This document shows positions 35,313 through 54,267 of a stretch of 54,267 nucleotides of DNA, piece after piece. The notes under the pieces were generated by a model. That model was not told where the DNA came from. It saw only the letters and a list, made by a program, of their open reading frames with translations, and did not search any database. Every line of letters starts with the position of its first letter. Positions within the stretch are counted from its first letter, which is position 1. This stretch comes from an uncultured Lachnospiraceae bacterium (GTDB lineage Bacteria > Bacillota > Clostridia > Lachnospirales > Lachnospiraceae): NCBI GenBank assembly GCA_947627365.1, contig CANQVT010000012.1, positions 1 through 54,267 of the forward strand, read 5' to 3'. The translations under genes and the position numbers were made by a program.

Positions 35313-35315
35313 CAC

Positions 35316-35345
35316 TTGACATTTTGCGGTGAGATAGTGTAGATT
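35316..35345 (+). promoter_or_regulatory. possible internal promoter before dapB
   Basis: TTGACA (35316-35321) and TAGATT (35340-35345) are separated by 18 bp in the 92-bp gap after dapA. This could let dapB escape riboswitch control. Confidence 0.5.
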
Positions 35346-35404
35346 ATCGTGGGTAATAAAGAGTAATCGGGAAATATAGAATATTCGGGAAGAGGATGAA
35401 GGAA

Positions 35405-36163: not shown

Positions 36164-36235
36164 AAACAGTGAGTTGTTTCTGCCGTGCGGCGTATATTTG
36201 GGATAATACAGTAACGATGAGACGAGGAGATTATT

Positions 36236-37984: not shown

Positions 37985-38013
37985 TTGAAATACACGGAGA
38001 ATTGGTTTATATT
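37985..38013 (+). promoter_or_regulatory. promoter of the glycan-use locus
   Basis: TTGAAA (37985-37990) and TATATT (38008-38013) are separated by 17 bp, 66 bp before the GH26 start. No obvious CcpA cre site or LacI-type operator was found by eye around it. Confidence 0.65.
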
Positions 38014-38078
38014 TATTAGGGAATTTGCTGAAAAAGAGATTTTGACAGAAATGAAAGAACTGAGGAGTGCCGGAAATT

Positions 38079-39665
38079 ATGAGGAAGATACGTAAAATCT
38101 GCAAAGGACTTATGGCTGTGACCGCGGCCGCCGCTCTGACAGCGGGTTGCATGACGGCAAACGCGACGGAGACGGACGAGAGCGCGGCTGAAACGGAGAC
38201 GGTCGGAGAGGCGTCAGACGCGGACAAGTCTGAGGAGGCTGCAGCCGGGGACGTGAGCGGCGAAGCGGCGGAGGCAGCCGACGGGACAGTCTATGAGGCA
38301 GAGGAAGCAGATTTTTCCGGCAATGTACATATCGAATCGCAACTCTCGGGTTATTCGGGCAACGGCTATGCGGCCGGCTTTCAGGACGACGGCGACGCGT
38401 GCAGCTTTGCCGTCTCTGTATCGGACGATGGTTTCTACGATCTCCATTTTATCAGCGCCGCGCAGGGCGGCTACAAAGAGAATTATGTGAACGTGGACGG
38501 TGAAAATCTGGGAACGGTCAGTGTCTCTGACGATTCTTTTACGGATTCACTGCTCTCAAGGGTTTTCTTGTCCGCGGGAGAGCATGAGATTTCAATCTCA
38601 AAATTCTGGGGGTGGATCTGTTTGGATAAACTGATCGTGCAGGAGGCGGAGTCTCTGGATGAGTCGATCTATCAGGTTTCCGCGAAGCTCTGCAATCCGA
38701 ACGCGAGCGAGAGCGCCAGAAGGCTGATGAGTTATCTGGCGGACAATTACGGAAAGAATATCATCTCCGGCCAGTATTCGAGCAGCGGCCGATACGGCAA
38801 GGAGTTCACGGTCATCAAGCGTGAGACGGAAAAGGAGCCGGCGATCCTCGGACTGGATTTCATCGAGTATTCGCCGTCACGCGTGGCGAACGGCAGTAAC
38901 CCGAAGTCTACGGAGTACGCGATCGACTTCTGGAAGAACGGCGGGATCGTCACCTTCTGCTGGCACTGGAATCCGCCTGAGAAGTATCTGACGAAGGAGT
39001 GGTACCGCGGCTTTTACGCGGACAGCACGGATATCGACCTCGCCGCGATCATGAACGGGGAGGACGAAGAGGGCTATCAGCTGCTGATGGAGGACGTCGA
39101 CGCGATCGCGAAGCAGCTTCAGATCCTGCAGGAGGCGGATGTGCCGGTTTTGTGGCGGCCGCTTCACGAGGCGAGCGGCGGCTGGTTCTGGTGGGGCGCG
39201 TCAGGCGCGGAGGCTTATAAGAAGCTTTATATTCTGCTGTATGATAAGCTGACGAACGAGTACGGGCTGAACAACCTGATCTGGGTCTGGAACGGGCAGG
39301 ACGCCGACTGGTATCCGGGCGACGAGTATGTGGATATCATCGGGGAGGATCTCTATCCCGGCGAGCATGTATATACCCCGCAGACGAATAAGTATCTGCA
39401 GGCGGTTCACTATACGGACGCGGACAAGATGGTCGTCATGTCGGAGAACGGCTGCATTTTCGACCCGGAGCTCGCGGTCCGCGACGGCGCGATGTGGGGA
39501 TTCTTCTGCACCTGGGAGGGTGAGTTCGTGGCGAAGAACACGGCCATCTTCGCCTACAGCGAACAGTACACGGAGACCTCGATGCTTCAGAAGGCCTACG
39601 ACAGCGATGTGGTGATCACGCTGGACGAGCTGCCGGATCTCCACAGCTACCCGATCCGGGAGTGA
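38079..39665 (+). CDS. GH26-family lipoprotein, probable beta-mannanase with N-terminal CBM-like domain
   Basis: The 528-aa protein starts with a lipoprotein signal (lipobox LTAGC, Cys24) and an acidic linker. A CBM35/CBM6-like beta-sandwich (about 72-195, YEAEEADFSG start) is followed by a GH26 TIM barrel (about 205-525). The acid/base E364 lies in WRPLHEASGGWFWWG and the nucleophile E456 in VVMSENGC; both match family 26, in which most members cleave beta-1,4-mannan. ATG 38079 is 12 nt from aggag; GTG 38067 abuts the SD. It would cut mannan at the cell surface, with products taken up by the transporter genes downstream. Confidence 0.9.
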   Translation: MRKIRKICKGLMAVTAAAALTAGCMTANATETDESAAETETVGEASDADKSEEAAAGDVSGEAAEAADGTVYEAEEADFSGNVHIESQLSGYSGNGYAAGFQDDGDACSFAVSVSDDGFYDLHFISAAQGGYKENYVNVDGENLGTVSVSDDSFTDSLLSRVFLSAGEHEISISKFWGWICLDKLIVQEAESLDESIYQVSAKLCNPNASESARRLMSYLADNYGKNIISGQYSSSGRYGKEFTVIKRETEKEPAILGLDFIEYSPSRVANGSNPKSTEYAIDFWKNGGIVTFCWHWNPPEKYLTKEWYRGFYADSTDIDLAAIMNGEDEEGYQLLMEDVDAIAKQLQILQEADVPVLWRPLHEASGGWFWWGASGAEAYKKLYILLYDKLTNEYGLNNLIWVWNGQDADWYPGDEYVDIIGEDLYPGEHVYTPQTNKYLQAVHYTDADKMVVMSENGCIFDPELAVRDGAMWGFFCTWEGEFVAKNTAIFAYSEQYTETSMLQKAYDSDVVITLDELPDLHSYPIRE

Positions 39666-39672
39666 GCGGCGT

Positions 39673-40326
39673 ATGAAATCGATCAGAGAGTTTTTTTCCT
39701 GGGAGGGCGGCCTGATCCGCTTCCTGAATAAGATGGGAGAGCTGATCCTGGTAAACACTGCGTTTGTGCTGTGCTGTCTGCCGGTGATCACCATCGGTTC
39801 CTCGATCACTTCCTTCTATTACGCGATGATCAAGAGCATCCGCAGAGAGAGGGGCAACCCGCTTTCCGAGTTCTTCGGCTCCATGAAGCGGACACTGGCG
39901 AAGGGCTGCATTGTGACGGTCGTATCCGTGCTGATCCTGGGGGTTCTGTACATCGGCGCGAGACAGCAGATCGATACAGGAAACCGCCATCTGGCGGCGG
40001 TCTACGTGGGGCTGATCGTCCTGTGTGTCTGCGTGCTGGTGAATCTTTTTCCGGTGATGTCACGTTTTTCCCTGCGTTTGCCGGAGCTTTTGAAGCTGTC
40101 CTTTGTGATGGGTATCCGATTCATTCCGGTGACGCTTGTCACGGTGCTCGGCACAGCGGCGGTCGGCTGGCTTTTGTTTTTCATCCTGCCGGTGCCTTGT
40201 ATACTGATCCTTCCGGGCTGCTGGTGCTATATAGTGACCTTCTTTATGGAAAAGGCATTGCTCGCGTACATGCCGAAGCCCGGGCCGGGCGAGGACGCGT
40301 GGTACTACGAGGATAAGAAAAAATAA
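39673..40326 (+). CDS. YesL-family (DUF624) membrane protein
   Basis: A 217-aa protein with about five TM helices. The N-terminal GLIRFLNKMGELILVNTAFVLCCLPVITIGSSITSFYYAMIK is characteristic of the YesL/DUF624 family, which regularly sits beside sugar ABC transporter and glycosidase genes; its function is unknown. It begins 7 bp after the GH26 stop, so it is in the same transcript. Confidence 0.88.
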   Translation: MKSIREFFSWEGGLIRFLNKMGELILVNTAFVLCCLPVITIGSSITSFYYAMIKSIRRERGNPLSEFFGSMKRTLAKGCIVTVVSVLILGVLYIGARQQIDTGNRHLAAVYVGLIVLCVCVLVNLFPVMSRFSLRLPELLKLSFVMGIRFIPVTLVTVLGTAAVGWLLFFILPVPCILILPGCWCYIVTFFMEKALLAYMPKPGPGEDAWYYEDKKK

Positions 40327-40421
40327 AAAGACGTCCTGCCCTTTGCGGCACCCGGAATTGATAAATTTAATGGCATTGACTGTGAATGGCAACAAGATCA
40401 TATAGATTGCGGAGGTAGAGA

Positions 40422-43400
40422 ATGAGACGAGATAAGTGGCAGAGAAAAGCCATACCGGTGATCCTGGCAGCGGGTCTGGTGCTCGCGATGCCGGGCCTTG
40501 TCATGGCGACGGATCCGGAAAGCGAAACGGAGACTGTCAGCGAAACGGAAGCTGCAAGTGAGACAGAAATTTTCAGCGAAGCAGATGCCGCAAGCGAGAC
40601 GGAAGCAGTCAGCGAGGCGGAGATCGAGAGCGAGACAGAGGCCGTCAGCGAAGCAGAAGCGGAAAGTGAGACAGAGGCCGTCAGCGAAGCGGAGACGGAG
40701 AGCGAGACCGAGGCTCTCAGCGAAGTGGAGACAGAAGACGAAACCGAGGCCGAGAGTGAAACAGAGGCAGCGATAGACGGAAGCGGAGTCAGTATGGACG
40801 AGTACGACGACATCATCAGCTTCTACTCGGTGGATGATTCCATCCCTTCCTACAAGGATTATGTGCAGCAGTTCGATCCGTCCTATCCGTCTGCGGAAGT
40901 GACGATGGGCGCGGTCGAGCTCGTGCGCTACGAGGAGGATGGCGAGGCGAAGGAGCCGGAGCTCTACACGGACTATATGGGCGTGGAGGGCGACAGCATC
41001 TACACGACGGAAGATTCCCTGACTGAGTTTGAGATTGAGGTTCCGGAGGAGGGCTTCTACAATCTCTCTCTGGAATATTATCCGGTGGAAGGCAAGAATT
41101 CCGATATCGAGCGCAGCATTTTTATAGATGGAAGTCTTTCGTATAAGGAGCTTGCCCTGATTTCGTTCCAGCGAATCTGGAAATACGATATGGAGCGGGG
41201 CGCGAACGAAAACGGTTCCGCTGCCTACGAGTGGGAGCGCGATAACCAGGGCAATGAATCCCGGCCGAGCATGGTGGAGGAGCCTGCGTGGCAGACAGAG
41301 CCGGTGTACGACAGCGACGGCTACATCAGCAATCCGCTTTCGATCTATCTGACGAAGGGGACGCACATTGTTTCCCTGATGTCCCTGCGTGAGCCGATGC
41401 TCATCCATTCTCTGACCTTCAGCAATCAGGCGGCCACTAAGCCTTATGCCGACGTGAAGGCGGAGCAGGACGCCGCGGGCGCTAAGGATACGAGCGGGCA
41501 GCTCATCACGATCGAGGGCGAGAACGCCACGCGTTCTTCGTCGCAGATGCTCTATCCGGTGCAGGATCAGTCGTCGCCGGCGGTTTCTCCGTCGAGCGCG
41601 AAGGAGCTCCTGAACAATACGATCGGGGGCAACTCCTGGCGTCTGGTCGGGCAGTGGATCGAGTGGGATTTCGACGTGCAGGAGAGCGGATACTACAATA
41701 TCTCTCTCTATGACAGCCAGAATTTTGTGCGCGGCATCTATGTCTCCCGCAAGATCCTGCTCGATGGAAAGGTGCCGTTCTCGGAGATGGAGGCCTACGG
41801 CTTCAACTACGGCCAGAGCTGGAGAGAGGACGTGCTGCAGGATGAGGAAGGCAATCCGTACTCCTTCTATCTGGAGGAGGGACATCACACCCTGCGCATG
41901 GAAGTGGTGCTCGGCGATTTCTCGGATATCATCAGCGAGGTGCAGGACTGTGTGCAGCAGCTCAACGGCATCTACCGCGAGGTCATCAAGATCACCGGCG
42001 TGAAGCCGGATACCTACCGCGATTACCAGATCGAGCGCACGCTGCCGGGGCTTCACGACGAGCTTTCGGCGGTGCACGACCAGCTGGCCGAGGCGATCAC
42101 GAGCCTGGAGCAGCTCACCGGAAAGAACTCCGACAAGCTGACCGTGCTGCTGACGATGCGCGACCAGCTTGAGGATCTGATCGAGGACGGCGACTACTTC
42201 GTGCGCGTCATCGGCACCTATAAGACAAATGTGCGTGCCTGCGGCAACTGGATCAGCCAGGTGATCGCGCAGCCGCTGGCGGTGGACCGCATCAACGTCT
42301 GCTCCCCGGATCAGGATGTGAAGTACGCGCACACCTCGTTCCTGGACAAGGCGGGCTATGAGTGCAGGAGACTGTTCTATTCTTTCATTATCGATTACAA
42401 CCAGATCGGAAACGTGTCCAAGGACGCGGGTGAGACGATCACCCTCTGGATCGGCACCGGCCGCGATCAGGCGAACGTCATCAAGGGTATGATCGACGAA
42501 TCGTTCACCAGCGAGACAGGCGTGAATGTGAACGTGCAGCTGGTCGACATGAGCACGCTGCTGCGCGCGGAGCTGGCGGGCGAGGGGCCGGACGTGGCGA
42601 TCCAGGTGACGAACACGACCGGGCAGATCGTGGCGCAGACCACGGGCGTGACGGCTCTGCCGAACGGCAACGACACGCCGGTCAACTACGGTATCCGCAA
42701 CGCCGTGCTGGATCTGAGCCAGTTCGACGATCTCGAGGAGGTCACAAAACGATTCTCTGAGGCGGCGATGACGCCCTTCCAGTTCGACGGGGCGACCTAC
42801 GGGCTGCCGGAGACCCTGACCTTCCCGGTGATGTTCTACCGCAAGGATATCCTGGCGGAGCTCGGCATGGAGATCCCGAAGACCTGGGACGACGTGAAGG
42901 TGGCCATGACGGTCCTCGCGAAAAACCAGATGGAGTTCGGCATGCTGCCGAGCGAGCAGATCTTCGCGATGCTGCTCTACCAGAACGGCGGGAGCTACTA
43001 CACCGAGAACGGTGAGAGCTCGGCGCTGGATTCTGATATCGCGGTCAATACCTTCAAGGATTACTGTGAATTCTACACGGATTATAAACTGGACAAAGAG
43101 ACGAGCGTGGAGGAGCGCTTCCGTACCGGCGAGTGCCCGATCATCATCGCGGACTACACGATCTACAACAACCTGGTCGTCTCCGCGCCGGATATCGCGG
43201 GACTGTGGGATTTCGCTCCGGTTCCGGGCACGGTGAAGGAGGACGGCAGCGTCGACCGCAGCACGGGCAGCACGGGTCTTGCCTGCATGATCATGGCGGA
43301 CACCGAATTTCCGGACGCGTGCTGGGAGTTCCTGAAGTGGTGGACCTCGGCGGACATCCAGACGCAGTACGGCAGAGAGATGGAGAGCCTGATGGGAAGC

Positions 43401-43682
43401 GCGGCGCGTGTGCCGACCGCCAACCTGGAAGCTTTCAGCAATATGCCGTGGCCGATCGACGACTACCGCGCGCTGGAAGAGGCCTTCGAGTGGGTGCAGG
43501 GCATCCCGCAGGTGCCGGGCGGCTACTATTCGTGGCGAAACGTGAACAACGCGTTCTACACGGTGACGACGGAGACAGACACCGCGTCGCCCAGAGAGGA
43601 ACTGATGGACAAGGTCATCTACATCGACGCCGAGATCAGCCACAAGCGGCAGGAGCTCGGGCTGTCGGTGGCCGCGCAGTAG
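40422..43682 (+). CDS. large multidomain extracellular solute-binding protein
   Basis: A 1086-aa secreted protein with a signal peptide (cleavage after about VMA, residue 29) and no lipobox Cys. An acidic Ser/Glu/Thr repeat linker (about 30-125) is followed by two beta-sandwich-like modules (about 160-350 and 360-535), each with a EVPEEGFYNLSLEYYP or VQESGYYNISLYDSQ strand typical of CBM-type folds. A helical region (about 540-640) and a family-1 solute-binding domain (about 690-1075, ITLWIGTGRDQANVI...TYGLPETLTFPVMFYRKDIL...DACWEFLKWW) follow. Ordinary sugar-binding proteins have about 430 aa. It should capture a large glycan or oligosaccharide for the permeases directly downstream. Confidence 0.85.
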   Translation: MRRDKWQRKAIPVILAAGLVLAMPGLVMATDPESETETVSETEAASETEIFSEADAASETEAVSEAEIESETEAVSEAEAESETEAVSEAETESETEALSEVETEDETEAESETEAAIDGSGVSMDEYDDIISFYSVDDSIPSYKDYVQQFDPSYPSAEVTMGAVELVRYEEDGEAKEPELYTDYMGVEGDSIYTTEDSLTEFEIEVPEEGFYNLSLEYYPVEGKNSDIERSIFIDGSLSYKELALISFQRIWKYDMERGANENGSAAYEWERDNQGNESRPSMVEEPAWQTEPVYDSDGYISNPLSIYLTKGTHIVSLMSLREPMLIHSLTFSNQAATKPYADVKAEQDAAGAKDTSGQLITIEGENATRSSSQMLYPVQDQSSPAVSPSSAKELLNNTIGGNSWRLVGQWIEWDFDVQESGYYNISLYDSQNFVRGIYVSRKILLDGKVPFSEMEAYGFNYGQSWREDVLQDEEGNPYSFYLEEGHHTLRMEVVLGDFSDIISEVQDCVQQLNGIYREVIKITGVKPDTYRDYQIERTLPGLHDELSAVHDQLAEAITSLEQLTGKNSDKLTVLLTMRDQLEDLIEDGDYFVRVIGTYKTNVRACGNWISQVIAQPLAVDRINVCSPDQDVKYAHTSFLDKAGYECRRLFYSFIIDYNQIGNVSKDAGETITLWIGTGRDQANVIKGMIDESFTSETGVNVNVQLVDMSTLLRAELAGEGPDVAIQVTNTTGQIVAQTTGVTALPNGNDTPVNYGIRNAVLDLSQFDDLEEVTKRFSEAAMTPFQFDGATYGLPETLTFPVMFYRKDILAELGMEIPKTWDDVKVAMTVLAKNQMEFGMLPSEQIFAMLLYQNGGSYYTENGESSALDSDIAVNTFKDYCEFYTDYKLDKETSVEERFRTGECPIIIADYTIYNNLVVSAPDIAGLWDFAPVPGTVKEDGSVDRSTGSTGLACMIMADTEFPDACWEFLKWWTSADIQTQYGREMESLMGSAARVPTANLEAFSNMPWPIDDYRALEEAFEWVQGIPQVPGGYYSWRNVNNAFYTVTTETDTASPREELMDKVIYIDAEISHKRQELGLSVAAQ
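40593..40736 (+). repeat. four 36-bp tandem coding repeats in the acidic linker
   Basis: Units of 12 residues (SETEAVSEAExE) run at 40593, 40629, 40665 and 40701, with degenerate flanking copies. They form an extended acidic spacer near the N-terminus of the large binding protein and are prone to length change by slippage. Confidence 0.8.
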
Positions 43683-43701
43683 AAGGGAGGGAGAGAGCGT
43701 T

Positions 43702-44634
43702 ATGGCAGAACAGACAGCTGTAAAAAAGAGCGCGAACAAGCAGAATACTCTGGGATACCGCATCCGGCGGAACAAAGTCTGCTACTTTATGATGGCGCCT
43801 TATTTTATCCTGTTTTTCTTTTTCACGGTGCTGCCGGTGGTGATCTCCATCGCCTTGAGCTTCACCTATTTCAACATGCTGGAGTTCCCGACCTTCGTCG
43901 GCTGGCAGAACTACATCCAGCTGTTTCTGGAGGACGATATCTTCCTGATCTCGCTGAAGAACACGCTGATCTTCGCCGTGGTCACGGGCCCGATCAGCTA
44001 CATCCTCTGCCTGCTGTTCGCGTGGATCATCAATGAATTTTCCGGGAAGGTGAGGGCGTTCCTGACCCTGATCTTCTATGCGCCGAGCATCTGCGGCAAC
44101 GCCTACATGGTCTGGAACCTGATCCTCACCGGCGACCGCTACGGCTACCTGAACGGTATCCTCATCAAGCTTGGCATCCTGGACGAGGCGATCCTGTGGA
44201 TGAAGACCGAGAAATACGTGCTGCCGGTGCTGATCGTCGTACAGCTGTGGCTCTCCCTCGGAACCGGCTTCCTCTCGTTCATCGCCGGTCTGCAGACCGT
44301 GGACAAGACGCTCTTCGAGGCGGCCGCCCTGGACGGCGTGAAGAACCGCTGGCAGGAGCTGTGGTACGTCACACTGCCGGCCATGAAGCCGCAGCTGATG
44401 TTCGGCGCGGTCATGCAGATCACGCAGTCGTTTGCCGTGGCGGATATTTCCATCCAGCTCGCCGGCAACCCGTCCGTGAACTACGCGGGCGCCACCGTGG
44501 TCACGCACCTGCTGGACTATGGTTCCACCCGTTTCGATATGGGCTACGCATCCGCCATCGCGACGGTGCTGTTCCTTCTGATGGTCGGCACCAATAAGCT
44601 GGTGCAGAGAATGTTAAGGAGGGTTGGCGAATAA
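43702..44634 (+). CDS. sugar ABC transporter permease (MalF-like)
   Basis: A 310-aa integral membrane protein with six TM helices and the inner-membrane EAA loop EAAALDGVKNRWQELWYVTLPAMKP. The N-terminal RRNKVCYFMMAPYFILFFFFTVLPV is typical of the first permease of CUT1 carbohydrate importers. The SD ggaggg precedes ATG 43702. Its stop overlaps the next permease start (TAATG). Confidence 0.93.
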   Translation: MAEQTAVKKSANKQNTLGYRIRRNKVCYFMMAPYFILFFFFTVLPVVISIALSFTYFNMLEFPTFVGWQNYIQLFLEDDIFLISLKNTLIFAVVTGPISYILCLLFAWIINEFSGKVRAFLTLIFYAPSICGNAYMVWNLILTGDRYGYLNGILIKLGILDEAILWMKTEKYVLPVLIVVQLWLSLGTGFLSFIAGLQTVDKTLFEAAALDGVKNRWQELWYVTLPAMKPQLMFGAVMQITQSFAVADISIQLAGNPSVNYAGATVVTHLLDYGSTRFDMGYASAIATVLFLLMVGTNKLVQRMLRRVGE

Positions 44635-45512
44635 TGGAAAAAAAGAGACGTCGGCTTTTCCGGAGAAAGCCCAGGAAATTAAACCGTTCCATGGCGGGCA
44701 ACGGCATCATGTTCTTCATCATGTTTATCTGCGGCATCTTCATGGCTCTGCCGCTGGTAATGATCATCAACAACGCCCTGAAGCCGCTGGACGAGCTGTT
44801 TCAGTTCCCACCGAAGATCTTTGTGCGCAACCCGACGCTGGAGAATTTCACCGATCTGTTCGTGCTGATGAACAATTCCTGGGTGCCGTTCTCCCGCTAC
44901 ATACTGAACACGATCATCATCACGGGCGGCGGCATGGTGGGTCACGTGATCTGCGCGTCCCTGGCGGCGTACCCGCTGGCGAAGCACAACTTCCCGGGCA
45001 AGAACCTGCTGTTTTCCATGGTCGTGCTCTCGATGATGTTCTCGTGGACGGTCACGCAGATCCCGCAGTACATCATCATCAGCTGGCTGCATATCAACAA
45101 CACCTATGCGGCGCTGGTGCTTCCGGCCTTCTCCTTCGGCATGGGCCTTTACCTGATGAAGCAGTTTATGGAGCAGCTGCCCGACGCGCTGATGGAGTCG
45201 GCGCGGCTGGACGGCGCTTCCGAGTGGCGCATTTTCTGGACGATCGTGATGCCGAACGTCAAGCCGGCCTGGCTGACGCTGGCGATCTTCCAGTTCCAGC
45301 AGATGTGGGGCAACACGGGCGGACTGTTCCTGCGAAGCGAGGAACTCAAGCCCCTGCAGTATTCCCTGCAGCAGATCACCGCGGGCGGCACGGCGAGAGC
45401 CGGCGCGGCGGCGGCCGTCACCTTCATCATCGCGGCGGTGCCGATCACGTTCTTCCTGATCTGCCAGAGCAGCGTGCTGGAGACCATGACCACGTCCGGT
45501 ATGAAAGACTGA
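44634..45512 (+). CDS. sugar ABC transporter permease (MalG-like)
   Basis: A 292-aa partner permease with six TM helices and the EAA loop ESARLDGASEWRIFWTIVMPNVKP. It would pair with the preceding permease and the large binding protein. The SD aaggaggg lies inside the end of the upstream gene. No ATPase gene accompanies it; CUT1 importers of Firmicutes often share a distant MsmK-type ATPase. Confidence 0.92.
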   Translation: MEKKRRRLFRRKPRKLNRSMAGNGIMFFIMFICGIFMALPLVMIINNALKPLDELFQFPPKIFVRNPTLENFTDLFVLMNNSWVPFSRYILNTIIITGGGMVGHVICASLAAYPLAKHNFPGKNLLFSMVVLSMMFSWTVTQIPQYIIISWLHINNTYAALVLPAFSFGMGLYLMKQFMEQLPDALMESARLDGASEWRIFWTIVMPNVKPAWLTLAIFQFQQMWGNTGGLFLRSEELKPLQYSLQQITAGGTARAGAAAAVTFIIAAVPITFFLICQSSVLETMTTSGMKD

Positions 45513-45525
45513 GAAGGAGGGCAGT

Positions 45526-47004: not shown

Positions 47005-47636
47005 TAAAGGAACTGTTCTCACTTGACAAATGGAAATACGCCTTTTACACAGTGAGCCATCCGATGGACGCTTACTATGAGATCCGCCACCGCGGAAGGG
47101 GCAGCGTGCCGGTAGCGATCGTGCTGGTGATCCTGTTTTCCTTAAGCTTTTCCATCAACCGCATGTCGGCGGGCTTTATCGTGAATGATGTGGATCCGCT
47201 GGAGGTGAACGCGCTCACCGAGCTGGTCGCCGTGCTGCTTTTGTATCTGCTGCTCTGCGTAGGCAACTGGTCCATCACCTGCCTGATGGAGGGCGAGGGG
47301 CGTCTGAAGGATATCGCGATCGCGATCGGCTATGCGCTGATCCCGATGATCATCTGCTTCAACATCGGCACGATCCTCAGCCAGTTCGTCTCCCTCGAGG
47401 AGGGGGCGTTCTACTGGATCATCATAGCGCTGGGCATCGCCTACGGACTGATCATGATGCTGATGGGGATCATGGTGGTGCACAACTACACGCTGGCGAA
47501 GACGCTGGTGACGATCCTGCTCACTTTTATCGCGGTGTTCATCATCATCTTTGTAGTGCTGCTGTTCGTGAATCTGATCAATCAGGTATACAGTTTCTTC
47601 TACAGTATTTACCAGGAACTGATGTACCGGGCATAG
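47001..47636 (+). CDS. Yip1-family membrane protein
   Basis: A 211-aa protein with about five TM helices. An N-terminal cytoplasmic segment (LFSLDKWKYAFYTVSHPMDAYYEIRHRGRGSV) precedes the helices, the usual Yip1-domain layout. Bacterial Yip1 proteins have no defined role. Start and stop overlap or nearly touch both neighbours, so it is probably produced in step with the NHL protein and the DUF5696-like protein. Confidence 0.8.
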   Translation: MIKELFSLDKWKYAFYTVSHPMDAYYEIRHRGRGSVPVAIVLVILFSLSFSINRMSAGFIVNDVDPLEVNALTELVAVLLLYLLLCVGNWSITCLMEGEGRLKDIAIAIGYALIPMIICFNIGTILSQFVSLEEGAFYWIIIALGIAYGLIMMLMGIMVVHNYTLAKTLVTILLTFIAVFIIIFVVLLFVNLINQVYSFFYSIYQELMYRA

Positions 47637-47648
47637 GAGGGGGACGAA

Positions 47649-50237
47649 ATGCGTACAAGAAAAAAAGTCGTGATCGCGTTTGTGATCCTCATCCTGGCGG
47701 CGGTCGCAGGCTGGTTCGGATGGTGGCTCTACCGCTATCATTTCTACAATGAATACAGGGAGGCCCTTTCCTCCTACGAGTACGAGGAGGGCGGATCCTT
47801 CACCCCGCTTGCGGATGAGGAGAGCGACGTGAAGGGCATGAAGCTCGCGGCGCAGAACGATATCCTGAAGCTCTACGCGAACACGGAGACCGGAGAGGTG
47901 GCCGTGGTCGACAAGCGCAACGGGCAGATCACCTACTCGAATCCGCCGGACGCGGACTCGGACGCGGTGGCGAGCGGCACGAACAAGAGCTTCCTGAAAT
48001 CGCAGCTGATCGTGGATTACTTCAACACCTCCAGGACGGAGGGAACGCTGGATTCCTACACCTACTGCACGGAAAAGGAAGACCAGCTCGCGGTGGAGGG
48101 GATCGAGAACGGGATCCGCTTCCTCTACACGATCGGCGATATGTCGAACAAGACCGGCCTTGTGCCGCAGTATATCAGCATTGAGACGCTGGAGAACGTG
48201 CTGGCGGCGCTCCCGGAGGACGACGCGAGCTTCGTGAACAAAAAATACACAGACAGCACAGTGGCGGAAAATTACAAGGAGCTGCTTCCGTCGGCCGCGA
48301 AGGGCGCGTCTCAGCTGCGCAAACTGAACAAATACTTCGAGGCCGCAGGCTTCACGAACGAAGATTACCTGCGCGAGATGGAAAACTCCGGCGTGGAGGG
48401 CGCGGTGCCGATCTCCTTTGAGATTCCTCTGGAATACCGCTTAAACGGCGACGCGGTGGATGTGTCCATCCCGATGAGTCAGGTGGTGGAGAACGGCGGG
48501 GGCGCGATCTTCCGCATCCAGCTGCTGCGCTACTTTGGCGCGGCGGGCAAGGATGAGAACGGCTACATGCTCGTCCCGAACGGCTCCGGCTCCCTGATCT
48601 ACTTCAACAACGGAAAGACCACGGCGGACAATTATTCCGAATACATGTACGGCATCGATCCGTTGGCCGCGGAGTACACGGTGCTGGAGAACACAGAGAA
48701 CCCCAAAATGGCGTTGTACGGGCTCTTCCGCGAGAAGAGCGGTATCTTTGCCACGATTGAGGACGGCGCGAGTCTGGCTTACTTAAACGCGGGCATCGCG
48801 GGCAAGATCAACGAGTACAACTATGTGTATCCGACCTTCGTGATGCGTGGGAACGACAAGCTTTCCATGTTCGGAGCCACCGGCAACGAGGCGGACATCC
48901 CGATCGTGGAGAAGAATTTCTACGACGCGAACCTTACAGTGAAATACACGATGCTTCCCGAGGAGGACGCGAGCTATGTGGGGGCGGCAAACTATTATCG
49001 CAATCGTCTGCTGGACGAGGGCGTGCTGACGGCGAAGGAGGAGACAGACGGCGACATCAAGTTCTACTACGATGTGCTGGGCGGCGTGGACATGACGAAG
49101 TTCATCCTCGGCACGCAGTATCAGGGTCTGTACGCGATGACCACCTTCGAGGAGGCGCAGGAGATGTCGGACGACCTGAAGGGGTTGGGCGTCTCCAATC
49201 AGGTGATGAATTTCCAGGGCTGGATGAACCGCGGCTACTATCATGATGTGGTGGATAAGCTGAAGATCCCGCACGCGCTCGGCAGCAAGTTGAGCCTCGG
49301 AACCTTAAACGACACGCTGGAGCGAAACGGTGGGATATTCTACGCGGACGTGGCGCTTCAGCAGGTGACATACGTCAGCAAGCGATACTCGGAGAACAAC
49401 GAGACGGCGCGCTATTACGGCGGCGGCTACATCGCCGAGTTCGGTCTGGTGAACCCGTCCACGCTGAGGCGGACCTCGGGGCTGGGTTATGAAGAGAACC
49501 ATTATTATCTGATATCGCCGAAGTTCCTGCCGCGCTATGTAAACAGCCTTGCGTCGAAGATCCAGAATTATAACGTGGACGGCATTTCCCTGAGAGATCT
49601 CGGAAATGAGCTCCACTCGGACAAGAAGCGGACGAACGTCATCAGCCGCGAGCAGGCGCTCGACGTGGTGCTGGATTCCCTCGCGAAGCTCTCAGACACC
49701 GGCAAAAAGCTTCTGGTGAACGATGGAAACGATTACTCCTTCGCCTATGCGGACGATATCATCAACGCGCCGCTGACGGACAACGACTACTACATTGTGG
49801 ACGAGACCGTTCCGTTCTATGAGATGCTGATCCACGGAAGCATCGATTATTCGGGTTCCGCGATCAACTTAAGCGACAGCTACGACCGCGCGGAGCTCGT
49901 GCTGAACCTGATCGAGACGGGCGCTTCCCCGCACTTCATGTTCTCGGCAAAGAATTCGAGCGAGATCAAAAACACGGGTCTGAACCGCTTCTGCTCCACA
50001 ACCTACGAGAGCTGGAAGAACGACGCCCTCGAGATATACACGGAGGTGAACGAGGCGCTGAAAGATGTGAAGGACAGCATGATCGTGAACCACGAGATTG
50101 TGAACGATCATCTGCGCATTGTCACCTATGAGAACGGTGTGAAGATTTATGTGAACACCGGGACGAAGGATGAGAGCGTGGACGGAGTTACGGTTCCGGC
50201 GAGGGCTTACGCGATAGGAGGTGAGGCAGATGAATAA
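47649..50237 (+). CDS. membrane-anchored DUF5696-like protein with glycosidase-like architecture
   Basis: An 862-aa protein with one N-terminal TM helix (about 8-28) and a large extracellular part. Residues 60-430 look like a beta-rich supersandwich (VPISFEIPLEYRLNGDAVDVSIPMSQV, GYMLVPNGSGSLIYFNNGK). Residues 450-780 look like a TIM barrel, with acidic strand ends such as DGISLRDLGNEL, LLVNDGNDYSFAYADDI and YYIVDETVPFYEM. This arrangement recalls glycoside hydrolases such as families 31, 36 or 101, but no catalytic pair is proven. I connect it to DUF5696 from memory. It overlaps the next permease by 8 bp. Confidence 0.72.
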   Translation: MRTRKKVVIAFVILILAAVAGWFGWWLYRYHFYNEYREALSSYEYEEGGSFTPLADEESDVKGMKLAAQNDILKLYANTETGEVAVVDKRNGQITYSNPPDADSDAVASGTNKSFLKSQLIVDYFNTSRTEGTLDSYTYCTEKEDQLAVEGIENGIRFLYTIGDMSNKTGLVPQYISIETLENVLAALPEDDASFVNKKYTDSTVAENYKELLPSAAKGASQLRKLNKYFEAAGFTNEDYLREMENSGVEGAVPISFEIPLEYRLNGDAVDVSIPMSQVVENGGGAIFRIQLLRYFGAAGKDENGYMLVPNGSGSLIYFNNGKTTADNYSEYMYGIDPLAAEYTVLENTENPKMALYGLFREKSGIFATIEDGASLAYLNAGIAGKINEYNYVYPTFVMRGNDKLSMFGATGNEADIPIVEKNFYDANLTVKYTMLPEEDASYVGAANYYRNRLLDEGVLTAKEETDGDIKFYYDVLGGVDMTKFILGTQYQGLYAMTTFEEAQEMSDDLKGLGVSNQVMNFQGWMNRGYYHDVVDKLKIPHALGSKLSLGTLNDTLERNGGIFYADVALQQVTYVSKRYSENNETARYYGGGYIAEFGLVNPSTLRRTSGLGYEENHYYLISPKFLPRYVNSLASKIQNYNVDGISLRDLGNELHSDKKRTNVISREQALDVVLDSLAKLSDTGKKLLVNDGNDYSFAYADDIINAPLTDNDYYIVDETVPFYEMLIHGSIDYSGSAINLSDSYDRAELVLNLIETGASPHFMFSAKNSSEIKNTGLNRFCSTTYESWKNDALEIYTEVNEALKDVKDSMIVNHEIVNDHLRIVTYENGVKIYVNTGTKDESVDGVTVPARAYAIGGEADE

Positions 50238-51150
50238 GAAAAAGAAAAAGCTGACGCTTTCCAGAAAGCGCAGCATCACCGGCTTTCTGTTTATCCTGCC
50301 GTGGCTGATCGGCTTCATCTGGTTCTACGCGAGAAGCCTGTTTCTGTCGATCGAGTTTTCCCTGTCGAACCTGACGGTGAACCCGGGCGGCGGCTATACG
50401 CTGGAATTTGTAGGACTGGATAATTTCCTCTACGCGTTCCGCGCGCACGCTACCTACAAGCAGGTGCTGACCACGTCCATCGGCAACATGCTGATCGACG
50501 TGCCGCTGATTACTTTCTTCAGCCTGTTCATGGCGCTGCTTCTGAACAAGAAGTTCCGCGGGAGGACGCTGGTGCGTGCCATCTTCTTCCTGCCGGTGAT
50601 CCTGAATTCCGAGGCGATCACGGCTGCGATGAACCTGGTCCGGACCATGATGAGCGGCGGCATCTCCAGCGCGAGCGCCGAGATGGCGGAGGCCGCGGCC
50701 GGAACCGGCGTGGGTCTGACTTACTATATCGAGATGTTCAGCAACTTAGGTCTGCCGGACTCGATCATCACCTACATCGCGGGGGCGGTGGACCGGATCA
50801 GCGACATCATCAACGCCTCCGGCGTGCAGATCATCATCTTTATCGCCGCTCTGCAGTCGATTCCGGAGTCCATGTACGAGGTGGCGAAGATCGAGGGCTC
50901 CACGGCCTACGAGACCTTCTGGAAGGTGACCTTCCCGCTGGTGATGCCGCACATTGTCACGAATGTGGTCTACACCGTGGTCGACAGCTTTACGCAGTCT
51001 GAGGTGGTGGAGCTGGCCTACGACACCGCCTTCACGGAGATGAACTACGGACTGAGCTCCGTGTTCAGTCTGGTGTCCACGGTGGTCACCTGTCTGATCC
51101 TGGTGATCGTCTGCCGCTTCATACAGAAGCGAACGTTCTACTATAACTAG
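50230..51150 (+). CDS. sugar ABC transporter permease (second system, MalF-like)
   Basis: A 306-aa six-TM permease with EAA loop EVAKIEGSTAYETFWKVTFPLVMPH. I chose ATG 50230 because aggaggtga precedes it by 6-7 nt; GTG 50221 is the alternative. It is not a close copy of the first permease. An unusual feature is a longer periplasmic-side insert (about residues 150-195, MSGGISSASAEMAEAAAGTG). Confidence 0.9.
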   Translation: MNKKKKKLTLSRKRSITGFLFILPWLIGFIWFYARSLFLSIEFSLSNLTVNPGGGYTLEFVGLDNFLYAFRAHATYKQVLTTSIGNMLIDVPLITFFSLFMALLLNKKFRGRTLVRAIFFLPVILNSEAITAAMNLVRTMMSGGISSASAEMAEAAAGTGVGLTYYIEMFSNLGLPDSIITYIAGAVDRISDIINASGVQIIIFIAALQSIPESMYEVAKIEGSTAYETFWKVTFPLVMPHIVTNVVYTVVDSFTQSEVVELAYDTAFTEMNYGLSSVFSLVSTVVTCLILVIVCRFIQKRTFYYN

Positions 51151-51165
51151 GAAAGGAGAGAAAAG

Positions 51166-52164
51166 ATGGAAAAGACAAAGAAGAAATCATTGCTTGTCCG
51201 GTACCGCGAGCTGATGGCGGACAGCCAGTTCACCAACGACCGCACCCGCTGGGCAGGCAATGTGAAAAAGTTCATCCTGTTTGTTTTCCGCCTGGTGCTG
51301 ATCGTCGGCGTGTGCTATGTCATCTTAGGTCCGGTCATCGGTATCATCAGCAGCTCTTTTTTCTCCGACGCGGACAGCTACAATCCGATGGTATACCTGA
51401 TCCCGCAGGAGCCCACGCTCGGGCGCTACACGATGGCGGCACAGTATCTGAATTACGGCAAGACCGTGACGTCCTCCCTGGCGTACTCCCTGTCTCTGAT
51501 GCTGATCCAGGTATTCATCTGTTCCATGGTGGGTTACGGATTCGCAAGATACAATTTTCCGCTGAAAAATGTCTTATTTGCGTGCGTGGTCATCATGATC
51601 GTCATTCCTACCAACACGATCATGCTCCCGCTGTATATGACATTTGCGAAATTTGATATCTTTGGAATTATAAAGGCAATTAAGGGGGATGCTGTCAACC
51701 TCCTGTCCACGCCGATCCCGATGTACATTATGACATTCTTCGGCTGTGGACTCCGGTCGGGGCTGTACATTTACATCTTCAACCAGTTCTTCCGCGGACT
51801 TCCGAAAGAGATTGAGGAAGCGGCGTTCGTGGACGGAGCCGGGACGCTGTATACGTATTTCCGTATCATGCTTGTAAATGCGATGCCCTCGGTCATCACC
51901 GTAGCGATCTTCTCTATGGTGTGGCAGTACAACGACACCTTCTACGCGAACCTGTTTCTGATCAGCAACGACATCGTGATCAGTAAGCGTATCGCCACGA
52001 TCGAAGCGTCGATCTCCAATGTGGAGAAGATCCTGGATCCCAATATCCTGGAGCTCTTTGTGGACGCTGGCATCGTGCTGATCATGATCCCGATCCTGAT
52101 CATCTACATCGCGCTGCAGAAGCAGTTCATAGAGGGCGTCGAGCGAAGCGGTATCGTCGGGTAG
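51166..52164 (+). CDS. sugar ABC transporter permease (second system, MalG-like)
   Basis: A 332-aa six-TM permease with EAA loop EEAAFVDGAGTLYTYFRIMLVNAMPS and the C-terminal KQFIEGVERSGIVG tail seen in MalG-type permeases. A 50-residue cytoplasmic N-terminus precedes the first helix. The SD aaaggagag is adjacent. It should pair with the preceding gene and with the binding protein that starts at the right edge. Confidence 0.92.
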   Translation: MEKTKKKSLLVRYRELMADSQFTNDRTRWAGNVKKFILFVFRLVLIVGVCYVILGPVIGIISSSFFSDADSYNPMVYLIPQEPTLGRYTMAAQYLNYGKTVTSSLAYSLSLMLIQVFICSMVGYGFARYNFPLKNVLFACVVIMIVIPTNTIMLPLYMTFAKFDIFGIIKAIKGDAVNLLSTPIPMYIMTFFGCGLRSGLYIYIFNQFFRGLPKEIEEAAFVDGAGTLYTYFRIMLVNAMPSVITVAIFSMVWQYNDTFYANLFLISNDIVISKRIATIEASISNVEKILDPNILELFVDAGIVLIMIPILIIYIALQKQFIEGVERSGIVG

Positions 52165-52194
52165 GAGACAAAAAAAGAAAAGGAGGATAAAAAG

Positions 52195-54087
52195 TTGAAA
52201 GCAAGAAAAATCATCACGTTATCTCTGATGTCTGCAGTGCTCGGCACGGCGGCGTTCGGGGGAATGAATGCGATGGCGGATGAGGGCGGTGCGGCCGCGG
52301 CCAGCATCGACTTCGAGGACGGCCTGTTCGGCTTCGCGGGAGTGGACAAATCCGTGAATTCCGCGGGCGACGTCGGTTCTCTGGAAGTGGTGGACTACAA
52401 CGGTTCCAAGGCGCTGAAGGTGACGTCGAACGGCAAGGCGATGTTTGTCGGCTTCCAGGCGGATGCGCTTCTGGGCGACAACATCGGGAATGTGGCTTCG
52501 ATCGACATGACGATCGGAAGCGAGAACCCGGACGGCGAGTTCGGCGCGGTGTCCGGCAACATCTACGCTTTCGTGGGCGAGGATCTGGCGCGCAACAACG
52601 GCGCGTGGTCGGTCTATCTGGAGACCGCGAATCCGAAGACCGTGAGCTACGCTCTGCCGGAGGGCAGCTCCATGGTTCCGGGCAGCTACATCGTCGTCTC
52701 TCTGGAGACGGATACCAAGAAGGATAAGGGCGCGACACCGGCGAATATGTACATCGACGACATCGCGTTCAAGGACGCGGACGGCAATGTGCTCCCGGTG
52801 GACACCTCCGCGGAGTATGTGGCGGTGGCGACGGGCGCGGACCGCTCCAACCTGTACGCGCTGACGAACGCAGTGGAGTTCGCGGACTTCGCGTGCTCCG
52901 GCGACGGCTGGGCGCAGAACGGCTTTGATATGCCGCAGGAGATCCTCGACGCGCTCGTTCCGGGCAGCGTTGTGGAGATTTCCTACACAAGCGAAACCGG
53001 CGATATGTGGCTGGTAATGCCGGATGCGGCGGCAGGCTGGATGAGAGTCGGCCAGGGCAACGCGGACGGCAGCGGCAGCGACAGTGCTTTCGTCAACAAT
53101 TCCAAGAACATTGCGCAGATCACCTACGAGCAGATCGCGGCGGTGTGCGGCGACGACGTCAGCACCTGGGGCGCGAGAATGCAGTGTGAAGCGTCGGGCG
53201 CTTGGGAAGTGCAGTCTGTGAAGGTCGGCAAGGCGGCCGTGCAGCCGGCTGTGGCTGACGCAGTGGAGTTTGCGGGCTTTGCGTGCACCGGCGACGGCTG
53301 GGCGCAGAACGGCTTTGACATGCCGCAGGAGATCATCGACGCGCTCGTTCCGGGCAGTGTGGTAGAGATCACCTACGCAAGCGACAACGGAGATATCTGG
53401 CTGGTAATGCCGGACGCAGCGGCGGGCTGGATGAGAGTCGGCCAGGGCAACGCGGACGGCAGCGGCAGCGACAGCGCGATCTCTGATGGCAGCAAGGCGT
53501 ACATCACCTACGAGCAGATCGCGGCGGTATGCGGCGACGACGTCAGCACCTGGGGCGCGAGGATGCAGTGCGAGGCTTCGGGCGCATGGGAAGTTTACGG
53601 CGTGAAGGTCGGTAAGAAGACCGAGCTGAAGCCGCTCAAGAACATGGTTGAGTTCACGGGCTTTGCGTGCACGGGCGACGGCTGGGCGCAGAACGGCGCG
53701 GCGATGCCGCAGGAGATCTTGGATGCGCTCGTACCGGGCAGCGTAGTGAGCATTTCCTACACGAGCGAGAGCGGAGACCTCTGGGTAGTCATGAACGAGG
53801 CTGCGGCGGGCTGGATGAGAGTCGGCGTCGGCAACATGGACGGCAGCGGCGGCGATCCGGCGGCTTACAACGGCAGCACCTGCCAGGTGACCTACGAGCA
53901 GATCGCGGCGCTCTGCGGCGACGATGTGAGTACCTGGGGCAGCACGATGCAGTGCGAGTCCTCCACCGCGTGGGAAGTCTACAGCGTAGCGGTAGGCCAG
54001 GCGGCGGACGCGGCTCCGGCAGCGGCGGCTGAGGCTCTCGAGGCGGAGACAGAGGCCGAGACGACGGCGGCTGAGGTAGCTGAGTAA
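52195..54087 (+). CDS. secreted protein with three near-identical carbohydrate-binding-like repeats
   Basis: A 630-aa secreted protein. The signal peptide (MKARKIITLSLMSAVLG...) is followed by a jelly-roll-like domain (about 33-205, beginning SIDFEDGLFGFAG). Three tandem domains of about 128 residues follow, starting near residues 226, 356 and 484; each has VEFxxFACxGDGWAQNG, MPQEIxDALVPGSVV, AAAGWMRVGxGN and TYEQIAA.CGDDVSTWG. Regular Trp residues suggest glycan binding. An Ala/Glu/Thr tail ends the protein. The start is TTG 52195 with aaaggagg at 9 nt. No anchor or LPXTG motif is visible. CBM family not recognised. Confidence 0.75.
   Translation: MKARKIITLSLMSAVLGTAAFGGMNAMADEGGAAAASIDFEDGLFGFAGVDKSVNSAGDVGSLEVVDYNGSKALKVTSNGKAMFVGFQADALLGDNIGNVASIDMTIGSENPDGEFGAVSGNIYAFVGEDLARNNGAWSVYLETANPKTVSYALPEGSSMVPGSYIVVSLETDTKKDKGATPANMYIDDIAFKDADGNVLPVDTSAEYVAVATGADRSNLYALTNAVEFADFACSGDGWAQNGFDMPQEILDALVPGSVVEISYTSETGDMWLVMPDAAAGWMRVGQGNADGSGSDSAFVNNSKNIAQITYEQIAAVCGDDVSTWGARMQCEASGAWEVQSVKVGKAAVQPAVADAVEFAGFACTGDGWAQNGFDMPQEIIDALVPGSVVEITYASDNGDIWLVMPDAAAGWMRVGQGNADGSGSDSAISDGSKAYITYEQIAAVCGDDVSTWGARMQCEASGAWEVYGVKVGKKTELKPLKNMVEFTGFACTGDGWAQNGAAMPQEILDALVPGSVVSISYTSESGDLWVVMNEAAAGWMRVGVGNMDGSGGDPAAYNGSTCQVTYEQIAALCGDDVSTWGSTMQCESSTAWEVYSVAVGQAADAAPAAAAEALEAETEAETTAAEVAE
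52870..54000 (+). repeat. three tandem coding repeats of about 384-390 bp
   Basis: Repeat 1 starts at 52870, repeat 2 at 53260 and repeat 3 at 53644. Long stretches are nearly identical in DNA as well as protein, for example the GWMRVGQGNADGSGSDS segment of repeats 1 and 2. This indicates recent duplication or gene conversion. Confidence 0.9.
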
Positions 54088-54124
54088 GTTAAAATAAGAA
54101 CAGGAAGAAGGAGGAATAAAAAGA

Positions 54125-54267
54125 ATGACGAACACGAAAAAATTATTTGCTCTTGGCCTTGGCCTCGCGATGACTGCAGGTCTTGCGATGACCGCGAACG
54201 CGGAGGAGCCGAGGACGATCAAGATCGGTACCTGGTACGATCACTACTATGACAGCACGAACACCGA
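54125..54267 (+). CDS. start of a second ABC solute-binding protein (truncated by window)
   Basis: Only 47 residues are present. A signal peptide (MTNTKKLFALGLGLAMTAG, cleavage near ANA/EE) is followed by RTIKIGTWYDHYYDS, the usual first beta-strand of a family-1 extracellular sugar-binding protein. The SD agaaggagg precedes ATG. It probably serves the permease pair at 50230-52164. It lacks a lipobox in the visible part. Confidence 0.7.
   Translation, partial: MTNTKKLFALGLGLAMTAGLAMTANAEEPRTIKIGTWYDHYYDSTNT

Follow-up and report, generated by a model that had tools for sequence, protein, structure and literature searches.

Three little-studied membrane proteins, an NHL beta-propeller protein, a Yip1-family protein and a DUF5696 protein, travel together in Gram-positive genomes and apparently belong to one undescribed machine for the uptake of plant fibre. 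We examined them in the window, a stretch of 54,267 nucleotides that is the whole of contig CANQVT010000012.1 from an uncultured Lachnospiraceae bacterium (GCA_947627365.1). We consider it probable that the operon at its end serves to catch, cut and import a beta-mannan-type plant polysaccharide, and that it is built around a widespread cassette in which the trio is part of the importer.

Gene content of the operon

From position 38079 to the contig end, ORF calls and Pfam matches define 12 genes, all on the plus strand, in the order GH26-CBM35, YesL, SBP1, P1a, P1b, NHL/TPR, Yip1, DUF5696, P2a, P2b, triple-CBM65 and SBP2. The original prediction had named these genes, their single strand and their order, all of which we confirm. 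It had also described most gaps as under 40 bp with several overlaps; the successive gaps are 7, 95, 19, -1, 13, -4, 12, -17, 15, 30 and 37 bp, so that 10 of 11 are below 40 bp and three are overlaps. The arrangement is far above chance, since the identical order recurs across the compared loci. The ORF caller is mechanical, and statements on lipoboxes and signals come from a simple motif or reading by eye. A putative sigma-A promoter (TTGAAA-17-TATATT, 37985..38013, plus strand) lies upstream of the GH26 gene and is the joint best promoter-like match within 37.4-54.3 kb (10 of 12 positions). Nine such matches were found against 6.7 expected by chance, which makes the candidate weak on its own; promoter and terminator scans of the operon region stayed near chance level. 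A conserved LacI operator 5' of the GH26 gene was considered and dropped, since among the 45 upstream regions compared no palindrome was common to more than two.

The first gene (38079..39665; alternative GTG start at 38067) exhibits an N-terminal CBM35 (PF16990, 7.4e-19) and a full-length GH26 domain (PF02156, 3e-73). Its nearest solved structure is the GH26 endo-mannanase 3zm8 (E-value 6.6e-94), with the match spanning both modules. The glutamates of the HEA and SEN motifs, which we take to be the catalytic pair, align in the comparisons with 3zm8 and with 6hpf, the latter having Gln at the first site. Homology with mannanases from end to end points to a beta-mannanase. From its sequence it is predicted to be extracellular; a lipobox-like LTAGC was seen by eye near the N-terminus. 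Of the 61 GH26 ORFs in the locus set, just 23 have a lipobox-like motif, so lipid anchoring is not general. The gene at 52195..54087 had been predicted as a repeat protein. Such a protein is present, but it is not of obscure nature: its three repeated stretches are CBM65 modules (PF18259, 1.9e-79), a beta-glucan/xyloglucan-binding family, and it is predicted to be secreted. A phmmer search at 0.01 found no PDB sequence match for it.

SBP1 (40422..43682) is a giant CUT1-type solute-binding protein of 1086 aa (SBP_bac_1, PF01547, 9.2e-21). It has an acidic repeat linker (by eye), then a pair of CBM35-like jelly rolls, a further segment and the binding domain at about residues 687-980. Compared by hhalign with the CBM35 of the operon, the two jelly rolls gave 96.5% and 96.1%, and a control segment (505-680) 0.2%. 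SBP1 lies within the locus in 97 of 104 eligible loci, and 3 of 75 SBP1 ORFs carry a lipobox-like motif. The second binding protein of the original prediction is also present, though the contig end cuts it after its first 47 codons (54125..54267, by translation). Its orthologue L009:1541-2890 matches SBP_bac_1 (5.1e-14), and the SBP2 cluster covers 69 loci (66 distinct) of 96 (91 distinct).

All four ABC permeases match PF00528: P1a (43702..44634; 6.3e-7), P1b (44634..45512; 7e-17), P2a (50221..51150; 6.6e-10), which overlaps the DUF5696 gene by 17 bp, and P2b (51166..52164; 4e-12). The glycine of the EAA loop is conserved in 104/104 rows for P1a, 100/101 for P1b (one gap), 116/116 for P2a and 120/121 for P2b (one gap). 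The locus therefore holds what is expected of a CUT1 importer, a binding protein and two permeases with the EAA docking loop. No OB_MalK-type ATPase was found in the draft genome of the window (84.5% complete). Such an ATPase is present in 8 of 11 same-genus genomes, and none was found in the other three, which are rated 96-100% complete and carry the cassette; this speaks against our preferred explanation. On a Paenibacillus plasmid, ugpC adjoins the cassette.

The remaining gene, at 39673..40326, encodes a YesL/DUF624 membrane protein (PF04854, 1.4e-13) related to MusI, with 75 bits (5.8e-21) against NF052431 MusI_fam, below the 160-bit cut-off. MusI is an additional membrane subunit of the MusEFGK2I importer.

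The NHL-Yip1-DUF5696 trio and its spread

The NHL protein (45526..47004; PF01436, 5.4e-18) exhibits a signal peptide and a C-terminal transmembrane segment (by eye); its TPR match is weak (best 6e-4, below the cut-off). It is followed by a multi-pass membrane protein of the cassette-type Yip1 subfamily (47001..47636; PF04893, 8.3e-15) and by the DUF5696 protein. Their linkage was followed in a set of 131 loci, made up of the window, 19 loci, the 79 closest to the window and 40 hand-spread picks, minus identical copies; near-identical species may remain. The picks were drawn by hand from 63 strong non-own phylum matches, with at most three candidates scored per genome. Loci with short flanks were excluded test by test, and each count is given with its eligible number.

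Among the eligible DUF5696 loci, NHL is present in 116/116 and Yip1 adjoins DUF5696 in 124/124; a non-overlapping ORF layout missed a separate Yip1 in 13 fusion-free loci, and the looser count finds it in every eligible locus. Where the downstream flank suffices, at least one P2 permease follows DUF5696 (119/119). The phylum draw alone gives 36/36 for NHL, 39/39 for Yip1 and 37/37 for a P2 permease. Taken singly, P2a occurs in 124/125 and P2b in 116/119 eligible loci, and P1a or P1b in 98/110. In the phylum draw, 12 of the 34 eligible loci have no P1 upstream, which counts against the explanation we prefer.

NHL and Yip1 are fused into one gene in 23 of the 125 loci with an NHL ORF. Across 398 phylum genomes (assemblies at least 90% complete plus that of the window), the genomes with cassette-type Yip1 and those with full-length DUF5696 are the identical 41. 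Cultured bacteria with the cassette include Thermoanaerobacterium butyriciformans, Butyrivibrio fibrisolvens D1 and soil Paenibacillus. In six genomes, 37 of the 39 Yip1 copies among those listed have a DUF5696 no more than 3.5 kb away; five of six genomes examined closely have 8-20 DUF5696 matches each, fragments included. The core genes also diverge together, with rank correlations of 0.80-0.95 over 52 loci, and of 0.67-0.75 with GH26. A trio found mostly away from glycoside hydrolase and transporter genes had been named beforehand as the outcome that would speak against a joint role. Permease linkage in the eligible loci leads us to reject a trio apart from transporters; glycoside hydrolases are often, not always, nearby. 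A text search of 5.39 million papers, with subscription papers outside its scope, found no mention of DUF5696, and combinations of Yip1, NHL, SBP and DUF624 gave either no paper or two that look unrelated.

DUF5696 and the GH129 glycosidases

The gene at 47649..50237 had been called DUF5696-like; its match to PF18952 (3.8e-190) makes it a DUF5696 protein outright. It exhibits an N-terminal hydrophobic anchor (by eye) and a GH129-like domain, presumably outside. The comparison family came from weak DUF5696 matches in same-genus genomes, which we rejected as DUF5696 when they proved to be GH129 enzymes (L021, E-value 8.6e-231 to 5wzn, and four alike). A search of 149 phylum genomes for the GH129 family gave no match, but neither did its controls, so it carries no weight as evidence of absence. 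Aligned to this family by hhalign, DUF5696 gave 98.6% over 472 columns at 14% identity; the E-value of 6.2e-16 is that of a single comparison. Its profile also matches 5opq (1.3e-8) and 5wzn (6.5e-5) in the PDB. The homology with GH129 glycosidases (5wzn) and the related 5opq/8rzg is weak and colinear, from the barrel to the C-terminus. Profile comparison thus predicts a GH129-homologous fold, to which DUF5696 adds its anchor and invariant residues of its own.

As aligned, the GH129 acid/base and metal-binding residues are not kept (columns 691, 521, 523, 567 and 568); we take these to be the acid/base Glu and the metal-binding His/Asp sites, three of which are altered in 5wzq. At the acid/base position, DUF5696 proteins have N/S/D/E/A in 56/23/14/9/8 of 129 cases. 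On account of these losses, we consider DUF5696 a probable glycan-handling domain that is GH129-like but non-catalytic. Alternatively, it may be an active membrane-anchored glycosidase of a new GH family beside GH129, which trims incoming oligosaccharides at their ends or side chains where they enter the importer, with NHL and Yip1 as its holders. Its homology with GH129 enzymes and with the related 5opq and 5wzn would suit this, as would several near-invariant polar residues (N740 in 129/129, R667 in 126/129, D658 in 124/129, E756 in 122/129 and N694 in 121/129), which could form a different active site; the nucleophile column is ambiguous in the alignment, and the nearby D650 is Asp in 106/129. 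Besides the variable acid/base position and the lost metal ligands, however, the occurrence of one family across loci with very different enzymes is easier to reconcile with a general component than with an enzyme for one linkage, and we regard an active DUF5696 as unlikely, if worth keeping in view.

Substrate, known importers and proposed mechanism

The operon combines a mannanase, extracellular as judged by sequence, with an ABC importer, as Gram-positive beta-mannan loci do. The GH130 also expected of such loci was not found in the draft genome of the window, nor in 10 of 11 same-genus genomes, a further point against our preferred explanation. Among 91 distinct loci, neighbour clusters labelled from one or two representatives each include LacI (31), GH130 (24), GH5 (22), epimerase (12), GDSL (11), and GH36, GH27 and GH113 (3 each). 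Relatives of the window carry GH130, epimerase, GH113 and GH36/27 downstream, which is supporting evidence for beta-mannan. The predicted mannan-like substrate hence stands for this clade, on GH26 homology and the mannan-catabolic genes of its relatives, but does not extend to the trio: GH26 occurs in just 2 of 25 eligible phylum-draw loci. Other cassettes lie near GH5, GH43, GH2, GH3, GH31, GH67, GH106-like or apiosidase-like enzymes, and one has no annotated GH within 14 kb; a family tally (best 25 families; 78 proteins of at least 410 aa) again shows GH43, and it alone puts GH28 near cassettes. Twenty large accessory proteins chosen by hand comprise eight GH or apiosidase-like proteins, one with a GDSL esterase domain, two SBPs, two HEAT-repeat proteins, one SLH protein and six without a match. 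Because the nearby enzymes vary between loci, the trio seems to be a module for glycan uptake in general, with GH26 marking one clade.

The missing GH130 makes glucomannan or a mixed mannan/beta-glucan diet fit better than pure mannan. The substrate could even be mainly beta-glucan (xyloglucan or mixed-linkage glucan), with GH26 accessory or of lichenase type. The triple CBM65 protein in the operon would agree with this; in the available text on Eubacterium cellulosolvens, CBM65A/B bind xyloglucan tenfold tighter than linear beta-glucan (PMC10992016). So would the scarcity of GH130 in the genus, the same-genus loci with LacI followed by GH5, the one tested being nearest to endoglucanases, and a paralogous cassette on another contig (C1) that adjoins a GH5 nearest to a xyloglucanase. 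However, both GH26 and its CBM35 match mannanases, and the GH26-bearing relatives of the same clade have GH130, some loci also GH113, alpha-galactosidase or epimerase. A mainly beta-glucan substrate is therefore decidedly doubtful in our judgement, and glucomannan or galactoglucomannan the most likely one.

In Bacteroidota, SusC/SusD-type pairs form an uptake core of which one genome has many copies, each next to its own set of GHs. The cassette resembles them as a multi-copy core near varied GHs; it has ABC permeases where SusC/SusD has an outer-membrane porin. Among described importers, the CUT1-type MusEFGK2I maltose importer has an additional small membrane protein, to whose family YesL is related below the cut-off; its available description is without a second permease pair, NHL, Yip1 or DUF5696 (PMC10101108). 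The MULL/MULS loci of Roseburia intestinalis comprise GH26, an ABC importer, LacI, GH130, epimerase, GH113, GH36 and esterases, and relatives of the window have a number of these families downstream; the words "yip1", "yesl" and "hypothetical" do not occur in the available text (PMC6385246). The Faecalibacterium prausnitzii mannan locus (14 genes) holds the components of one ABC transporter, LacI, GH36, GH113, epimerase and one hypothetical protein, and the available text does not contain "yip1", "nhl" or "yesl" (PMC8262883). That ours is an ordinary duplicated CUT1 importer, with each of its two permease pairs taking other chain lengths and the trio carried along for unrelated envelope duties, is very improbable: the four normal permeases with EAA loops and two SBPs would allow it, and the Roseburia locus, as described, works with one SBP and two permeases against two pairs and two SBPs here (PMC6385246), but the near-perfect linkage and co-occurrence of trio and P2, the NHL-Yip1 fusion and the correlated divergence argue against it.

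We thus favour the trio as part of the importer, in a cassette that would comprise SBP1, P1a-P1b, NHL, Yip1, DUF5696, P2a-P2b and SBP2. At the surface, the polymer would be held and cleaved by the GH26-CBM35 and triple-CBM65 proteins, and SBP1, with two CBM35-like modules on its CUT1 binding domain, would gather oligosaccharides together with SBP2. The P1 and P2 pairs, separate and each with an intact ATPase-docking loop, would import these with an ATPase whose gene lies elsewhere. In this reading NHL and Yip1 function as one unit and, with the membrane-anchored DUF5696, as constitutive parts of the importer. The trio would most likely be a platform on the outer face of the membrane where long oligosaccharides and binding proteins dock and by which the two importers are coupled, with DUF5696 probably its non-catalytic, GH129-like glycan handler. 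More tentatively, and at somewhat less than even confidence, we propose that the trio and both permease pairs form a membrane machine not described before, which would be for Gram-positive bacteria what SusCD is for Bacteroidota, in which a pseudo-glycosidase on the membrane passes long oligosaccharides from a giant CBM-bearing SBP to two coupled ABC importers, and of which about 15 copies in some genomes cover different plant glycans.

Models of how Gram-positive fibre degraders import large oligosaccharides usually show a single, simple ABC importer. About 10% of the sampled phylum species (41 of 398) share a cassette that has a second permease pair and, in addition, three membrane proteins that are almost inseparable. 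Should the trio prove to be a genuine component of the importer, DUF5696 would serve as a marker by which loci for glycan uptake could be found in Gram-positive genomes, and functions could be given to a Pfam DUF family and to one subfamily each of Yip1 and NHL/TPR proteins.

Gene content and layout of the operon

The window, which is the whole of contig C12 in a draft genome 84.5% complete, has Lachnospiraceae MAGs as its named near relatives, among them one labelled Marvinbryantia sp. Its plus strand carries twelve co-directional genes from position 38079 to the contig end, separated in operon order by 7, 95, 19, -1, 13, -4, 12, -17, 15, 30 and 37 bp. The same-strand gene set of the original prediction is borne out by Pfam, with matches to GH26+CBM35, YesL (DUF624), a 1086-aa solute-binding protein (SBP1), four permeases (the pairs P1a-P1b and P2a-P2b), NHL with weak TPR, Yip1 and DUF5696. 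The predicted repeat protein is present and proves to carry three CBM65 modules; the second binding protein (SBP2) begins at 54125, and only its first 47 codons precede the contig end. Directly upstream of the operon (34428-37555) lie dapA-, dapB- and aspartate-kinase-like genes, named by eye from their translations, which form an unrelated housekeeping stretch.

Conservation of the cassette and links within the trio

DUF5696 loci were taken from same-genus and same-order genomes, a one-genome-per-species collection (best 79 loci) and a phylum-wide draw of 398 genomes. Conservation was counted over 131 distinct loci, a set over-representing close kin of the window, with loci having enough flank as denominators. 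NHL lies directly upstream of DUF5696 in 116/116, as does Yip1, separate or fused, in 124/124; downstream, P2a is present in 124 of 125 loci and P2b in 116 of 119. P1a or P1b occurs upstream in 98/110, SBP1 anywhere in the locus in 97/104, CBM65 in 55/108 and GH26 in 45/75. The phylum draw taken alone (39 distinct loci) gave NHL 36/36, Yip1 39/39, upstream P1 22/34 and SBP1 in the stretch 26/32; several loci without upstream P1 have SBP1 and P1 elsewhere on the same stretch. Since NHL, Yip1 and P2 are near-constant and P1 and SBP1 less so, the tightest unit is NHL-Yip1-DUF5696-P2, to which GH26 and CBM65 are accessories. The trio NHL, Yip1 and DUF5696 had been placed in a glycan locus; across the Firmicutes genomes of the draw it does recur with an adjoining P2 permease (37/37), but it is not tied to GH26 (2/25). 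The cassette of both binding proteins, both permease pairs and the trio is real and general.

Independent evidence also links the trio. NHL and Yip1 are fused as a single gene in 23 of the 125 loci with an NHL ORF, and the annotation of a Paenibacillus cellulosilyticus plasmid has one 2160-bp "YIP1 family protein" gene in their place. Separate searches of the 398 genomes with the cassette-Yip1 profile and the DUF5696 family returned, by script check, the identical 41 genomes; DUF5696 at E 0.001 reaches 52, of which the additional 11, set apart by a line placed post hoc in a score gap, match it weakly and over part of its length (best 2.2e-6, two barely passing). Within six multi-copy genomes, the matches listed include 39 Yip1 copies; 37 of these have a DUF5696 no more than 3.5 kb away, and the remaining two are on contigs without DUF5696 among those matches. 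Over 52 GH26 loci, core-protein divergences correlate with each other (rank correlation 0.80-0.95) more than with GH26 divergence (0.67-0.75), which is only supportive, as common descent by itself yields some correlation.

DUF5696 and the import components

A PDB search with a profile of 12 DUF5696 sequences matched 8rzg/8rzk, 5opq (1.3e-8) and 5wzn/5wzq (6.5e-5), along with two ribosomal proteins near 0.8 that are chance matches; a true GH129 protein as query retrieved the same group. When a profile of 129 DUF5696 sequences was compared with one of five GH129 sequences, the result was 98.6% across 472 columns, with 14% identity and an E-value of 6.2e-16 that applies to this single comparison. 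As aligned, the column that we take to be the GH129 acid/base holds N/S/D/E/A in 56/23/14/9/8 of the 129, and N, Q, D and V prevail in the presumed metal-binding His/Asp columns; three of the sites concerned carry changes in 5wzq. The nucleophile column is ambiguous, the nearby D650 being Asp in 106/129. P722, G730 and N740 are invariant (129/129), and R667 (126), D658 (124), W525 (124), E756 (122) and N694 (121) nearly so. On balance these alignments lean towards a GH129-like domain outside GH129 proper, probably non-catalytic. A full-length GH129 enzyme does occur near ABC permeases in a same-genus genome (G018, L021:7730-9604, minus strand); its match to the alpha-N-acetylgalactosaminidase 5wzn (E 8.6e-231) may indicate mucin O-glycan use in the genus.

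SBP1 has two CBM35-like jelly rolls ahead of its binding domain, matching the operon's own CBM35 at 96.5% and 96.1% (control segment, 0.2%). By a simple motif test, a lipobox is found in 3/75 SBP1 ORFs, 48/69 of SBP2 and 23/61 of GH26; with the motif so rare in it, SBP1 is probably held by partners or by the hydrophobic segment at its N-terminus. All four permeases retain the docking-loop glycine, which makes two working importers likely. The operon has no ATPase gene, and an OB_MalK search of the 84.5% complete draft gave no match; ugpC adjoins the cassette on the Paenibacillus plasmid. OB_MalK is found in 8 of 11 same-genus genomes. Because the other three, 96-100% complete, lack this expected ATPase family, our confidence fell very slightly in what we still consider a reasonably probable explanation, namely a mannan-type operon built on a general importer cassette.

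Substrate and changing enzymes

The window GH26 aligns with mannanase 3zm8 across CBM35 and catalytic domain (E 6.6e-94) and keeps the HEA and SEN glutamates, which we take to be catalytic. Among 91 distinct loci from the first two sources, labelled from representatives, the cassette is surrounded by LacI (31), GH130 (24), GH5 (22), epimerase (12), GDSL esterase (11), GH36, GH27 and GH113 (3 each). The same gene set is known from the mannan loci of Roseburia (PMC6385246) and Faecalibacterium (PMC8262883). The beta-mannan assignment is supported in part, but a pure mannan diet fits poorly with the lack of a GH130 match in the draft. GH130 is also found in only 1 of 11 same-genus genomes (0/7 among the best assemblies), which favours the main rival, a beta-glucan, as do the CBM65 modules, of a xyloglucan/beta-glucan family (PMC10992016). 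Same-genus loci moreover have LacI then GH5, the single GH5 tested being nearest endoglucanases, and a second cassette of the same genome (L003, G000:C1:50001-70000; identity 30% for DUF5696, 58% for P1a) adjoins a GH5 nearest the xyloglucan-specific endoglucanase 4w84. Weighing these against the mannanase match and the mannan-locus genes of relatives, we regard glucomannan or galactoglucomannan as quite likely the substrate of the window operon.

In a 129-sequence tree a single clade with 87 members (support 0.989) contains every GH26-bearing locus; no GH26 was found in the fetched stretches of the 42 sequences outside it. Outside the window's kin, 8 of 20 accessory proteins picked by size had GH2, GH3, GH31, GH67, GH106-like or apiosidase-like domains; GH43 and GH5 also occur by cassettes, as do GH28 and GH43 in the family tally. 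On Butyrivibrio fibrisolvens D1 plasmid pNP243 (L151), GH43 and three binding proteins accompany the cassette, and a two-component system is nearby. The P. cellulosilyticus plasmid cassette (L152, NZ_CP054609.1) adjoins four LLM-class flavin-dependent oxidoreductases (flavin monooxygenases), with no annotated GH found within 14 kb, and its solute may differ from a plain glycan. HEAT-repeat proteins were seen by two cassettes (L118:16770-19859, 1030 aa; L130:1-2244, 748 aa). Six genomes have 4 to 20 DUF5696 matches each, the highest comprising about 15 long matches and five fragments; the 8-20 matches, fragments counted, per 2-3 Mb genome in five of them (G136, G117, G096, G183, G209) resemble SusCD expansion in style.

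The cassette looks like a general module with changing enzymes. The trio would form a fixed importer platform serving both permease pairs, with the NHL propeller and the DUF5696 pseudo-glycosidase outside and Yip1 within the membrane, to which CBM-bearing SBP1 and SBP2 would hand oligosaccharides. The non-subscription literature covered yielded no mention of DUF5696 and only two unrelated-looking matches for Yip1 and NHL beside importers. The system is an ABC glycan importer in kind; it differs from known ones in the fixed trio and second permease pair, which are its new part.
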